The notes under the pieces are model-generated. The model was not told the DNA's origin, searched no databases, and saw only the letters and a program-made list of their open reading frames with translations. This document shows, in pieces, positions 25,857 to 34,144 of a stretch of 44,199 nucleotides of DNA. Source of the stretch: Silicimonas sp. (GTDB taxonomy: Bacteria > Pseudomonadota > Alphaproteobacteria > Rhodobacterales > Rhodobacteraceae). The position numbers and the translations under genes were made by a program. How positions within the stretch are numbered: the stretch's first letter is position 1; the number at the start of each line of letters is the position of its first letter. The stretch is from contig JAJEFO010000099.1 of the NCBI GenBank assembly GCA_022820365.1, positions 1-44,199 of the forward strand. The letters run 5' to 3'.

Positions 25857-25882
25857 GGGAATTACATACTTGCCTAACCATC
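25857..25882. repeat. Left terminal inverted repeat of the tnpB element
   Basis: It starts GGGAATTACATAC and ends CTAACCATC. It pairs with the complement of 27184-27209 (22 of 26 identical). The core ATTACATACTT recurs at the left end of the mini-element (31626-31636). Confidence 0.7.
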
Positions 25883-25979
25883 GGGCCAGAAAGATGTTGC
25901 AGTTTTGTTCCATATGTGCATTGTGTGTGAGAACGCGGACAACGCCTTATCCCCAGACGCCATTCACGGGAGCGACCAC

Positions 25980-27185
25980 ATGACACGCGAAGCGTGGGCT
26001 TCGGCCGAAGCCAGGCGCATCAGGACAGTGACCAGCACGGCGTCGATCAGCGCGGCGACGCATTGTCGGCTGGACGCATTCCTCCGGCAGCAGACTGTTC
26101 TATGGAACGCCGCGCTCGAAGAACGCATCGACTGCTACCGAAAGACGGGGAAGACCATCACAGCCTTCGACCAGATGAAGTCCCTTACCGTCATTCGCGG
26201 CGAAGACGGGGGCTTCCGGCAATTCAATGTCGGACCGCAACGCTCCGTCCTGCGCCGCGTCGACCGCGCCTTCCAGGCGTTCTTTCGCCGCGCAAGGGCC
26301 GGGGGGAAGCCCGGCTTTCCGCGCTTCAAGGCCAGGCACAGAGGCATCCGCTCGTTCGACATCCCCGATCCCGTGATCCGAGACGGCTCGCTCCGGCTCA
26401 AGGGCATCGGGCGCTTCCGCCTTCCGTCAGTGCCGGCCGGCAGGATACTACAGGCGCGGGTGGTCAAGACGCCGCTCCGGGTCGTGGTCCAGTTCGCCGT
26501 GGAGGGGGAAGTGCCTGACGCCAGGCCGTCCGAACCCGTGGGCATCGATCTGGGCGTCAAGGACCGCGCCATCCTCTCGACGGGCGAGACGGTGCCCGCC
26601 GTCAGCATCGACCGCCGACCGCTCAGGCGGGCGCAGCGCGCCGTGTCGCGGGCGAGGAAGGGGTCGGCGTCCCGCCGGAAGAAGGTCAACGCGCTTCGCC
26701 GGGAGTGGGAGCGGACGAGGATGCGGGAGCGCAACGCGCTCCACAGGATTTCGGCATCGATCGTGAAGAGCCGCAACCGGATCGCCATCGAGGACCTGCA
26801 GGTCTCGAACATGATGCGCAATCCGACGCTGGCGCGGTCGATCGCCGAACAGCAGTGGGGGAGACTCGCGGAGCAACTGGTCTACAAGGCTGAAAGCGCC
26901 GGTGGGTCAGTGGTGCGGGTCGACCCCAAGCACACGAGCACGGACTGCCATGCCTGCGGGCACAGGCAGCCCATGCCATTGGGTGTGCGCGAGTTTGCCT
27001 GCGGCGGCTGCGGTCTGGTGACGGACCGCGATGTCAACGCGGCACGGAACATTCTCCAGCGCGGGATCGCGCTGGCCGGGTGGGACATCGGCCCCTTGGG
27101 TCGTCCCGGCGCGTCCGAGAGTGTTCATGAACCACATGTCGCCGGGTTGCCGGGGCAGGACGCGGAACGGTGTACGGCTGACTGA
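25980..27185 (+). CDS. tnpB: TnpB RNA-guided nuclease (IS1341-type, no transposase)
   Basis: A 401-residue TnpB of usual length. RuvC residues are D190 in PVGIDLGVKDRA, E271 in IAIEDLQVSNMM and D351 in TDRDVNAARNIL. The zinc ribbon is complete, with C323, C326, C341 and C344 (CHACGH...FACGGCG). The helical N-terminal part contains the family segments GGKPGFPRFKARH and SFDIPDP. All features needed for guided DNA cleavage are present. The start at 25980 (MTREAWASAEARR) is preferred; an in-frame ATG at 25905 lies in the left end of the element. The stop at 27183-27185 is inside or next to the right inverted repeat, so the guide RNA overlaps the 3' end of the gene, as is usual for TnpB. Confidence 0.9.
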   Translation: MTREAWASAEARRIRTVTSTASISAATHCRLDAFLRQQTVLWNAALEERIDCYRKTGKTITAFDQMKSLTVIRGEDGGFRQFNVGPQRSVLRRVDRAFQAFFRRARAGGKPGFPRFKARHRGIRSFDIPDPVIRDGSLRLKGIGRFRLPSVPAGRILQARVVKTPLRVVVQFAVEGEVPDARPSEPVGIDLGVKDRAILSTGETVPAVSIDRRPLRRAQRAVSRARKGSASRRKKVNALRREWERTRMRERNALHRISASIVKSRNRIAIEDLQVSNMMRNPTLARSIAEQQWGRLAEQLVYKAESAGGSVVRVDPKHTSTDCHACGHRQPMPLGVREFACGGCGLVTDRDVNAARNILQRGIALAGWDIGPLGRPGASESVHEPHVAGLPGQDAERCTAD

Positions 27186-27209
27186 TGGTTAGTCATGTAT
27201 ATAAATCCC
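27040..27209 (+). ncRNA. Predicted omega/reRNA scaffold of the tnpB element
   Basis: In TnpB systems the guide RNA scaffold overlaps the 3' end of tnpB and runs to the right end, with the guide taken from flanking DNA. Here CCCGGC (27105-27110) can pair with GCCGGG (27141-27146) and GCGTCC (27111-27116) with GGACGC (27158-27163), an a-b-a'-b' order that makes a pseudoknot. CCGG-GTTG-CCGG (27142-27153) is a competing local hairpin. The same pairings survive in the mini-element with one G-U change. The 5' limit given is a guess. The guide would begin at 27210. Confidence 0.45.
27184..27209. repeat. Right terminal inverted repeat of the tnpB element
   Basis: It begins GATGGTTAG and ends ATAAATCCC. 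It is the inverted partner of 25857-25882. Its GTCATGTATAT core matches GTCATATATAT at the right end of the mini-element (31943-31953). Confidence 0.7.
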
Positions 27210-31613: not shown

Positions 31614-31621
31614 AAGGGAAA
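31614..31621. repeat. Left copy of direct repeat flanking the mini-element
   Basis: AAGGGAAA recurs exactly at 31961-31968. If the GGA that follows is counted, 11 bases are identical (31614-31624 and 31961-31971), although GGA may belong to the left inverted repeat. It is best read as a target-site duplication of the purL Shine-Dalgarno region. Confidence 0.6.
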
Positions 31622-31960
31622 GGAGATTACATACTTTACTGAAAGGCATGGAGGAAAAGTGCTGCGCTTTCGTTCTGCCCGTGCATTATGCGCGGGAGAG
31701 GGTCAGGTGCGTTCAACAACTGAACCGCAGGGCTGCGAGTGCCGGCGGGAATGTAGCGCACAAGGTCCACAAAGTTGCCGCGATGTCAGTGCGGCACGGA
31801 ACATTCTCCATCGCCTTGTGGCGGAGGCCAGGTGGGTCATCGGCTCCAAGAGTCGTCCCGGTGCGTCCGAGAGTGTTCTTGAAGACTATCGCGCCGGGTT
31901 GCCGGACGAGGACGCGGAACGGTATACGGCTGAAGGATTTCAGTCATATATATGAGCCCC
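31622..31960 (+). mobile_element. Non-autonomous mini-element derived from the tnpB element
   Basis: This 339-bp sequence keeps both ends and the 3' part of the tnpB element but lacks most of tnpB. The left end shares ATTACATACTT (31626-31636) and carries a strong hairpin CCCGTGCATTATGCGCGGG (31678-31696). From about 31770 it follows the tnpB 3' end, including CGGCACGGAACATTCTCCA, TGCGTCCGAGAGTGTTC and GACGCGGAACGGT. The right end has CTGAA/TTCAG in place of TGACT/AGTCA, so the stem is kept by compensating changes. The inverted ends match at about 16 of 23 positions. It is flanked by an 8-11 bp direct repeat. It resembles MITE/PATE-type derivatives. Confidence 0.75.
31780..31960 (+). ncRNA. 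Predicted orphan omega/reRNA-like scaffold upstream of purL
   Basis: The pseudoknot pairings of the full element are retained: CCCGGT (31857-31862) with GCCGGG (31893-31898), using a G-U pair, and GCGTCC (31863-31868) with GGACGC (31910-31915). The CCGG-GTTG-CCGG hairpin is also kept. A guide beginning at 31961 would read through the purL Shine-Dalgarno and start codon. Expression is not shown. The coding capacity here is only a degenerate TnpB tail (RDVSAARNILHRLVAEARW). Confidence 0.35.
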
Positions 31961-31968
31961 AAGGGAAA
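31961..31968. repeat. Right copy of direct repeat; supplies the purL ribosome binding site
   Basis: AAGGGAAA, with GGA following, sits immediately before the purL ATG at 31973 and acts as its Shine-Dalgarno. It is identical to 31614-31621 on the other side of the mini-element. Confidence 0.6.
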
Positions 31969-31972
31969 GGAC

Positions 31973-34144
31973 ATGCAGGAACCCGAGATCACCGAGGATC
32001 TGGTCGCCGCCCACGGGTTCACTCCTGAGGAATACCAGGAAGTTCTCCGCATACTGAACCGAGAGCCGACCTTTACCGAGCTCGGCATATTTTCCGCAAT
32101 GTGGAACGAGCATTGCTCTTACAAGTCATCGAAGAAATGGCTGAAGGCCCTTCCGACGTCTGGACCGCAGGTCATCTGCGGTCCGGGCGAAAACGCCGGC
32201 ATCGTCGACATCGGGGACGGCCAGGCCGTGGTCTTCAAGATGGAAAGCCACAACCATCCTTCGTATATCGAGCCCTATCAGGGAGCGGCGACCGGGGTTG
32301 GAGGCATACTCCGCGACATCTTCACCATGGGCGCAAGACCGGTTGCCGCGATGAACGCGCTCTCCTTCGGCGCGCCCGGCCATCCGAGGACCAAGCGGCT
32401 CGTGTCAGGAGTCGTCGAGGGAATCGGTGGCTACGGCAATGCCTTCGGCGTGCCGACGACAGGAGGCGAAGTGCGGCTTCACAGCAGCTACAACGGAAAC
32501 TGTCTCGTGAACGCCTTTGCCGCCGGCATCGTGGATGCAGACAAGATCTTCTACTCCGCCGCGAGCGGTGTCGGCATGCCGGTTGTCTATCTTGGCGCGA
32601 AGACTGGACGCGACGGCGTGGGAGGCGCCACGATGGCCTCGGCGGAGTTCGACGAAGACAACGAGGACAAGCGACCCACCGTTCAGGTTGGCGATCCATT
32701 CACCGAAAAGCGTCTGCTCGAAGCCTGCCTCGAACTGATGGCCACCGGTGCGGTGATCTCGATCCAAGACATGGGGGCCGCAGGCCTCACCTGCTCTGCG
32801 GTGGAAATGGGCGACAAGGGCGGCCTCGGCGTCAGACTAAATCTTGATGCCGTGCCGCAACGCGAAGACGCCATGACAGCCTACGAAATGATGCTCAGCG
32901 AGAGCCAAGAACGGATGCTGATGGTGCTCAAGCCCGCGTACGAAACAGAGGCAAAGGCGATTTTCGAGAAGTGGGATCTCGACTTCGCGATCGTGGGCGA
33001 GACCATGGAGGAAGACCGCTTCCTCGTCATGCACCAAGGCGAAACCAAGGCGGACCTGCCGCTTTCGCATCTTTCTTCCAGCGCGCCCGAATACGACCGT
33101 CCGTGGGTCGAGACGTCCCCTCCCGCCCCGCTTTCGGACGTACCCGAAATCGACCCGATCGAGGGATTGAAGGCATTGGTCGGTTCGCCAAACTACGCAC
33201 GCAAGCAATGGGTTTGGGAACAGTACGACAGCCAGGTCATGGCCAACACCGTGCGCACACCTGGTCGCGGCCCGGGCATCGTCCGGGACAACGAAACCGG
33301 GAAGATGCTGGCTTTCACTTCTGACGTGACACCCAGGTACGTGAAGGCAAGTCCGTTCGAGGGCGGAAAGCAGGCCGCGGCGGAGGCCTATCGGAACCTG
33401 ACGGCCACTGGAGCCAGGCCGCTTGCAGCAACCGACAACCTGAATTTCGGCAACCCGGAAAAGCCACAGATCATGGGCCAGTTCGTTGGCGCCATCAAGG
33501 GAATTGCAGAGGCCTGCACCGTGCTGGACATGCCGATCGTTTCCGGCAACGTCTCGTTCTACAACGAGACCGACGGCCAGCCGATCCTGCCAACGCCGAC
33601 AATCGGTGCCGTCGGCCTGATCCTGCCAGGGGAAACTCTCGTGGCGAACGAAGTCCAGGACGGTGACTGGGCGCTCGTGGTCGGGAAATCGACAGGATGG
33701 CTTGGGCAATCCGCGCTGCTGGCCGAGGCCTTCGGCCGCGAGGAGGGGGAAGCCCCGGCAGTCGACCTGGCCGCCGAGCGCGCCCACGGCGAATTTGTCA
33801 GGGAACACGTCGCCCTGATTCACGCCGCGACCGACCTGTCAGACGGCGGCCTTGCGCTTGCGGCTTTCGAATTGGCGGATGCGGCTGGCCTCGGCATCAC
33901 CCTTGACACGGATGAAGTTGGCGCCCTGTTCGGCGAGGACCAGGCCCGCTACCTGATTGCCTGCGGCTTCGACCAGGCCGAAGCCATAATGGCAGCGGCA
34001 TCCCGTGCCGGCATTCCCGTCAGCCAAGTCGGACGCTTCGGTGGAAACCAGATCTCGTTCGGCGGTGCTTCGGCACCGCTCGCCGAACTCTCCGAACTTT
34101 ACCGCAGCGCCTTTGCCGACGTGCTTTCGTTGCATGATGGCTAG
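31973..34144 (+). CDS. purL: Phosphoribosylformylglycinamidine synthase subunit PurL (small type)
   Basis: A 723-residue PurL of the small, three-component type that works with PurQ and PurS in purine synthesis, turning FGAR into FGAM with ATP and glutamine-derived ammonia. The catalytic His is H47 in [14 protein letters not shown]; the substrate and ATP segments [25 protein letters not shown] and [10 protein letters not shown] follow. The second half repeats the fold ([29 protein letters not shown]). The start at 31973 fits the family and follows AAGGGAAAGGA. An in-frame ATG at 31952 lies in the mini-element and would add seven foreign residues. The insertion puts at least 339 bases between any older promoter and the gene. 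Confidence 0.96.

Follow-up and report, generated by a model that had tools for sequence, protein, structure and literature searches.

The 44,199-nt stretch of Silicimonas sp. DNA analyzed here (contig JAJEFO010000099.1, hereafter the window, to which all coordinates refer) raises the question of why an element carrying what looks like the scaffold of a TnpB guide RNA lies directly upstream of purL, and whether it serves that gene. We conclude that this 339-bp mini-element is very probably a miniature inverted-repeat transposable element (MITE) of a tnpB-bearing transposon of the IS1595 type, that it inherited its scaffold from that transposon, and that it is now drifting at purL, where its position looks accidental. 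Throughout, genomes, loci and contigs are designated G, L and C; G000 is the genome of the window, and the genus set comprises this genome and seven others.

The mini-element occupies positions 31622-31960 (forward strand) and is flanked by an 8-bp direct repeat, AAGGGAAA, at 31614-31621 and, identically, at 31961-31968. The same 8 bp are present as a single copy in the empty sites of six relatives, and the empty purL site (CCTTGAAGGGAAGGGACATGCAGG or a close form) was found in six of the seven other genus genomes, the seventh, G004, having the same insertion as the window. The element ends in 23-bp terminal inverted repeats. The left one, GGAGATTACATACTTTACTGAAA (31622-31644), which begins GGGGATTACATAC in other copies, resembles the right end when that is reverse-complemented and also the left ends found next to transposases of the IS1595 family; the right one, TTTCAGTCATATATATGAGCCCC (31938-31960), resembles such left ends in reverse complement, for example GGGGCTTATATACTTGACTGAAA in L187. 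Copies with the same length and ends are dispersed, as illustrated by G006:C47 (339 bp, exact duplication AATGCATT). In total, nine insertion sites were identified in four of the eight genus genomes (three in G000, the others in G004, G005 and G006), eight of them 88-96% identical over the part present and one, G005:C132, 78% identical. Two of the three sites in G000 are split across contig ends (C94/C70 with AAAGAAAT and C84/C69 with AATTTGTG). Among 198 sampled genomes of the family, DNA of the mini-element was detected in its own genome and, over about 30 bp only, in three others. Exact 8-bp duplications flank 8 of the 13 scaffold-bearing elements that have both ends on one contig (purL, G006:C47, G005:C123, G004:C209:98729, L103, L102, L064, which surfaced through a protein scan, and L137), and in L153 the duplication matches at 7 of 8 positions. 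Short, dispersed and without an intact gene, the mini-element is a MITE; Pfam at E up to 1 gave no match in its two overlapping open reading frames (ORFs). A block at 31653-31698 (forward strand) aligns with the left end of full tnpB elements and may hold a promoter for tnpB or the scaffold, although a sigma-70 consensus scan of the left end passed no site and did not confirm a conserved promoter there.

Repeats of this kind also lie beside transposases of the IS1595 family, whose elements give 8-bp target-site duplications. The corresponding domain, PF12762, was present in 8/8 genus genomes, and we fetched 30 PF12762-type loci as an IS1595-family set. The repeat GGGGATTATATAC was found upstream of the DDE domain at 17 of these 30 loci with at most two mismatches (shuffled patterns averaged 0.1/30) and at 14 with at most one (shuffled patterns, 0.0). 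With three mismatches 21 loci matched, and since shuffled patterns then match often (average 3.0, maximum 8), we relied on the two-mismatch limit. Searching for the left repeat returned 33 places in 8 genomes, compared to 2 matches for a reversed-pattern control. L172 (G004:C116) is a 2.4-kb element with the ends GGGAATTATATACTTGACTGAAA and GGGGATTATATACCTGACTGAAA, an 8-bp duplication, AAACTTTG, and an open frame for a 326-amino-acid transposase (Pfam DDE_Tnp_IS1595, 131 bits; NCBIfam transpos_IS1595, 185.6 bits with a cut-off of 75). The MITE thus has inverted repeats in common with an autonomous element of the genus, at both ends in L172 and at the left ends in L187 and L190, and the length of the duplication agrees, being 8 bp in L172 and in the 8/13 two-ended scaffold elements. 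The mini-element fits the 'TGACTGAAA' repeat subgroup, and forms like the 'TTGCCTAACCATC' of the full tnpB copy in the window occur in L184 and L166, which lie at contig ends and have no visible transposase. The elements resemble the IS1595 family (NCBIfam NF033547, Pfam PF12762) in the inverted repeat GGGnnTTATATAC, in the 8-bp duplication seen in L172 and in occurring in the same genomes; they differ from it in that an IS1595 transposase is absent from the mini and tnpB elements examined. Because the repeats of the mini-element and of the full copy match those beside IS1595-family DDE transposases, the comparison of ends indicates that bacterial TnpB rides in IS1595-type elements here, and the mini-element was most likely moved in trans by a transposase of this family. 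We reject an IS200/IS605 or IS607 origin, and with it an IS605-like assignment, because of the 23-bp inverted repeats and 8-bp duplications, two features that elements of those kinds lack.

Two side observations concern these IS1595-type elements. L172 carries two passengers (L172:76-2254), one encoding an N6/N4 DNA methylase and the other a 170-amino-acid product without a Pfam match, and L180:2365-2641 is a 277-bp MITE with IS1595-type ends and the duplication AAAGGAAA that is like the tnpB elements only in the repeat and could possibly serve as a control family.

The full tnpB element of the window (25857-27209, forward strand) is bounded by IS1595-type inverted repeats, GGGAATTACATAC...GTATATAAATCCC, which form a 29-nt inverted repeat of 86% identity and match at 20/24 bp. 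It encodes an intact TnpB of 401 amino acids (25980-27185, forward strand; NCBIfam guided_TnpB, 215.5 bits with a cut-off of 100). This ORF ends 4.4 kb from the mini-element; an earlier note on this DNA was right that an intact TnpB lies nearby, but the distance of 6 kb that it gave was not. The protein aligns with ISDra2 TnpB (8bf8; E = 3.7e-39), including the D, E and D residues and the zinc-finger cysteines, and two of these three acidic residues we take to be active-site residues of ISDra2 TnpB. Across the first 340 codons, the ratio of nonsynonymous to synonymous substitution rates (dN/dS) was 0.24 and 0.26 relative to L102 and L103. The remaining acidic residue, D191, is an active-site residue of ISDra2 TnpB according to passages of PMC8612924. 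These results imply that the TnpB of the window is intact and under purifying selection, with nuclease activity predicted. While the inverted repeats of this copy are good, the 8-mers that flank it do not match, and the element may therefore be old or rearranged.

The scaffold of the mini-element comprises 165 nt at 31796-31960 (forward strand), and that of the full copy, which overlaps the 3' end of tnpB, lies at 27044-27209 (forward strand). Both thus take the position, at the 3' end of tnpB and the right end of the element, in which ISDra2 encodes a right-end element RNA (reRNA, or omega RNA) of about 150 nt with its guide, as passages of Karvelis 2021 (PMC8612924) describe it. The two scaffolds score 176.5 and 199.2 bits, respectively, with the covariance model R1, which was built from 42 right ends that include these two. 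For this alignment 42 of 48 rows were used, the other six having unrelated or altered 5' parts, and we proposed seven helices with 42 pairs in total; two of the helices cross as a pseudoknot. Across the 42 right ends and 42 pairs, pseudoknot included, 94.7% of cells were paired, compared to 34-47% in a slid control, on helices drawn on the very sequences that were then counted. Double-sided changes were observed in 65 cells, a count inflated by kinship among the rows. None of 500 shuffles reached the observed paired percentage, number of double-change cells, pair types or covariation score, and the count of pairs showing double changes was reached in 5/500. Helix P1, which joins 31799-31806 to 31871-31878 in the proposed pseudoknot, was paired in 94.2% of cells and has two pairs with double changes; hairpin P2 (31808-31815 with 31820-31827) has three, and the last hairpin, P7 (31928-31945), has four. 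The 3' strand of P7 lies inside the inverted repeat, and its other strand changes together with it between repeat subgroups. The right-end stem is likewise compensated, reading CUGAA/UUCAG in the mini-element and CUGAC/GUUAG in the full copy, and the G-U change between them is real. The earlier note had claimed that a tnpB-derived mini-element retains a scaffold whose pairings are conserved with the full copy. This is borne out overall, except that an A-A mismatch breaks one P2 pair in the purL copy.

Judged by these patterns, the scaffold is real, complete and of the TnpB guide-RNA type, and production of an RNA from it is predicted; the right inverted repeat itself constitutes the 3' end of the scaffold and would form one strand of the last hairpin. 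The evidence for it is covariation rather than folding energy, because single-sequence folds were not unusually stable (z = -0.84 for the mini-element and 0.59 for L137). No Rfam family matched at its gathering score in the window, nor at E up to 1 in 31780-31990. A covariance scan of 394 genomes of the family matched 11, including the genome of the window and G007. One further genus was represented by G021 (66 bits), where tblastn detected a tnpB stretch with 46% identity over 85 residues. The other eight matches were weak (three at E 2e-6 to 4e-5, five at E 3e-4 to 9e-4), and after reading their sequences we judged them to be due to chance. One of these, L220 (G393), has a weakly TnpB-like stretch about 0.8 kb downstream (30% over 91 residues, E = 0.01).

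Selection on the scaffold appears to have acted in the tnpB-bearing elements and not in the MITEs derived from them. The rows were grouped as the 339-bp form (mini339, n = 10), the approximately 222-bp form (type B, n = 8) and the remaining 24. Pair-keeping substitutions numbered 5 of 12 in mini339 (null expectation 5.3), 14 of 40 in type B (12.5) and 45 of 72 in the remaining rows (26.2; P < 0.0002), where 22 of the 45 were double, so that a null that fixes the partner base favours this last group. A second null, in which the 3' letters were dealt anew within each group, left the verdict unchanged: double-change cells numbered 0 in mini339 (0.0 when shuffled) and 2 in type B (1.2), compared to 19 in the 24 rows (6.9, with 0/1000 as high), where 95.3% of cells were paired as against 93.1% (0/1000 as high). 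Covariation therefore stands above the shuffled level both for the 42 rows taken as a whole and for the 24 that are not MITEs, and is at chance inside both MITE families. Since pair-keeping is above its null only in those 24 rows, we read the comparison as indicating that the structure is selected in tnpB elements and that single copies drift once a MITE has formed. Conservation of the pairings in relatives, on which the earlier note had staked its proposal, accordingly holds for the tnpB group but not for the MITE families. Two further mini forms, of about 222 bp (L137) and 361 bp (L152), retain the whole scaffold and a left end, but scaffold retention in independent mini forms was not accepted as proof of selection, because the right-end search by which the scaffold right ends were gathered is biased towards right ends. 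In the 222-bp type (L137, with the exact duplication AAGGTCTG, L151, L154 and L019), a left end of about 58 nt is fused directly to a complete scaffold; the left ends of L151, L154 and L019 were recognised by eye. The scaffold is 5'-truncated or replaced in five elements (L024, L027, L145, L156 and L159).

At purL itself (31973-34144, forward strand; AIRS domains), comparison places the start at ATG 31973, which is present in six relatives and in G004. A guide beginning just past the right end would, as the earlier note proposed, span the Shine-Dalgarno sequence and this ATG: its 18 nt, AAGGGAAAGGACATGCAG (31961-31978, forward strand), would begin with the right copy of the 8-bp duplication. 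Its sole exact match in the genome is its own site; there was no second site at up to two mismatches, and six were found at three mismatches, compared to two for a reversed-pattern control. Between G000 and G004, 13 of 165 scaffold sites (7.9%) differ, compared to 9 of 174 sites in the remainder of the element (p = 0.38 for the contrast); elsewhere, differences amount to 5/118 intergenic sites, 36/609 third codon positions of purL and 9/573 sites of the upstream gene. Changes at paired sites break pairs in one of two cases in the window copy and in three of four in G004. A right end was counted as lying beside a start codon when an ATG that opens an ORF of 80 codons or more and has a Shine-Dalgarno-like motif stands no more than 45 nt away; 4 of 46 right ends qualify, two of them being the purL insertion, compared to 5.2% of background positions (p = 0.21). 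The bases directly before the guide at the occupied site are CCCC, in contrast with the G found before 21 of 23 duplications, and the occupied allele would therefore be spared, by analogy with the rules for target-adjacent motifs (TAMs). We also observed that the right end of the element creates an in-frame upstream ATG for purL at 31952, where gene callers may place the start; G004 lacks it, while ATG 31973 is common to both.

The target sites of the scaffold elements show a preference of their own, G|AANNNNNN, with G before the duplication in 21/23 and AA at its start in 16/23. At IS1595-type left ends the corresponding counts are 14/22 and 6/22 (p = 0.007 for AA), and A follows the right end directly in 40 of 48 cases. 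The preference is one-sided in the orientation of the element, which is odd for a symmetric DDE insertion. We regard it as a lead, given that the lists were compiled by hand and that the two sets compared differ in transposase lineage. As proof of a TAM it was not accepted, because IS1595-type elements, too, often have a G ahead of the duplication.

Taken together, these data fit a history in which a non-autonomous derivative arose from a tnpB-bearing transposon with IS1595-type repeats and an 8-bp duplication and was mobilised in trans by a DDE transposase of the IS1595 family. Its scaffold, whose RNA would be processed in a TnpB-dependent manner, would have been shaped by selection in the tnpB-bearing elements and then inherited by the MITE. 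Insertion in the purL leader would predate the split of the two species that share the copy, and the target duplication would have copied the Shine-Dalgarno sequence, so that purL could have stayed translatable. The scaffold of the purL copy would now be drifting and presumably has no present function. Several observations weigh against this account. Nine of the 30 IS1595-family loci lack the repeat even at three mismatches, and four two-ended elements (the full copy of the window, L037, L044 and L152) have no matching duplication. No transposition was observed, and an IS1595 transposase and tnpB within one pair of repeats were not seen, although no systematic search was made. Finally, mini339 has changed at 13 of 84 paired sites compared to 25 of 81 unpaired sites (p = 0.026; 0.067 without the ends), and with fewer changes at paired sites some constraint on the mini copies is possible.

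The plainest form of the MITE account, and not an exclusive rival to it, is that the scaffold became inert with the first deletion event and stayed so, and that TnpB was never involved in the spread of the element. We consider this somewhat better than an even bet: pair-keeping at chance level after amplification and a divergence at purL no lower than that of its surroundings speak for it, whereas the consensus of the mini copies is still an intact scaffold, pairing at 41 of 42 positions, and a G-C to C-G swap in P2 occurs, among the 42 rows, in the 10 mini copies only.

An unlikely alternative is that of a selfish MITE, in which each mini-element would act as a small guide-RNA gene whose RNA is used by the TnpB of full copies to cut the unoccupied allele, so that the MITE is kept or copied. 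In the case of purL, the empty allele would be attacked and the occupied one would not. Such a role is compatible with the MITE account for old copies and would add a function for young ones. It is consistent with the near-complete pairing of the mini consensus, the presence of an intact TnpB, the whole scaffold and left end kept in L137 and L152, and the greater richness of scaffold targets in G|AA relative to IS1595-type targets, as a TAM filter would give. On the other hand, pair-keeping is at chance inside both MITE families, retention of right ends was partly guaranteed by the design of the search, five elements have a truncated or replaced scaffold, and the target bias may be a trait of the transposase lineage. 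A wider version of this idea, which we likewise hold to be improbable, is that IS1595-type DDE transposons captured a bacterial TnpB independently of Fanzor and recoded their repeat as a guide-RNA strand, with the opening bases of the target duplication (G|AA) perhaps part of the recognition motif. The MITEs, each consisting of a left end, the scaffold and the inverted repeats, would then be trans-guide parasites, dependent on a borrowed IS1595 transposase and a borrowed TnpB to spread and to hold their sites.

Exaptation at purL, with the scaffold as a cis-acting leader or an RNA-guided repressor as the earlier note envisaged, is highly implausible: the sense orientation, the position directly before the Shine-Dalgarno sequence and the insertion common to two species would suit it, but the scaffold shows no less divergence than its surroundings, changes at its paired sites break pairs in three of four cases in G004 and in one of two in the window copy, start codons are not enriched beside right ends, the mini-element occupies eight sites besides purL, no second site comes close to matching the guide, which is preceded by CCCC and not the usual G, and TnpB keeps its catalytic residues. 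The purL 'guide' is thus probably a by-product of the landing place, nothing at purL pointing to a function.

TnpB is usually tied to the mobility of IS605 and IS607 elements, where the target site doubles as the recognition motif. Its residence in IS1595-type elements raises the question of how TnpB would recognise an empty site when the duplicated target separates the motif from the rest of the guide. The system resembles the ISDra2 TnpB reRNA in the origin of the scaffold, the guide taken from past the right end and the RuvC active site of TnpB; it differs in having a DDE-type inverted repeat of 23 bp as its right end, accompanied by an 8-bp duplication, and in the existence of a mini copy without tnpB. 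It also offers a bacterial parallel to Fanzor, a TnpB homologue carried by DDE transposons of eukaryotes (Bao and Jurka 2013, PMC3627910; NAR 2023, PMC10711439). In both, the protein is found in transposons with inverted repeats and duplications, and the guide-RNA scaffold is predicted to include the inverted repeat, and in Fanzor the duplication too. Unlike Fanzor, which is eukaryotic or viral, the protein here is a bacterial TnpB in IS1595-type elements, and a pseudoknot is proposed, which is reported to be absent from Fanzor1 reRNAs (PMC10711439). According to Bao and Jurka 2013 (PMC3627910), by comparison, insertion sequences that carry only TnpB have neither inverted repeats nor duplications. 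TnpB-derived RNA-guided repressors (TldR) likewise have a TnpB-derived scaffold near a host gene, but TldR is nuclease-dead, whereas the TnpB here has D, E and D aligned to ISDra2 TnpB, its guide lacks a close second site and there is no sign of selection at purL.

We did not find an earlier description of TnpB housed in an IS1595-type transposon. Among titles and the opening lines of abstracts, with most subscription papers outside this scope, none was recognised as dealing with a bacterial TnpB in a DDE transposon, and papers naming both TnpB and IS1595 did not have their association as a topic, judged by title or abstract start; passages of PMC9956272 and PMC11870625 contained no such case. 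While the purL case itself is ordinary, these elements offer a natural setting in which to test whether MITEs that carry only a guide exploit TnpB in trans.

The association extends past the TnpB subfamily of the window. A second subfamily, of about 40% identity or less (L114, L115, L119, L120 and L125), lies between the same kind of repeats, with an exact duplication, ATGAATTC, in L120. Beyond the genus, TnpBs of other genera lie between IS1595-type repeats as well, with exact duplications in L232 (1359 bp, AAAACGGA) and L231 (2545 bp, AAAAAGAG); of two ORFs of L231 that were scanned, one gave no Pfam match and the other a weak TnpB-type match below cut-off, and no transposase was detected in this element. 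In L239 and L242, which come from a different family of Alphaproteobacteria, both repeats are present and the duplications are imperfect; L243 has both repeats and no duplication. One end only was visible in L230, L233, L235 and L240, and no end in L110 and L241. A TnpB of about 42% identity was also observed between different inverted repeats (GGTAATGTATCACTTTGAC, 17/20) in L111 (1383-2637, reverse strand of the locus), where the element is flanked by an exact 8-bp duplication, GAAATCTT.

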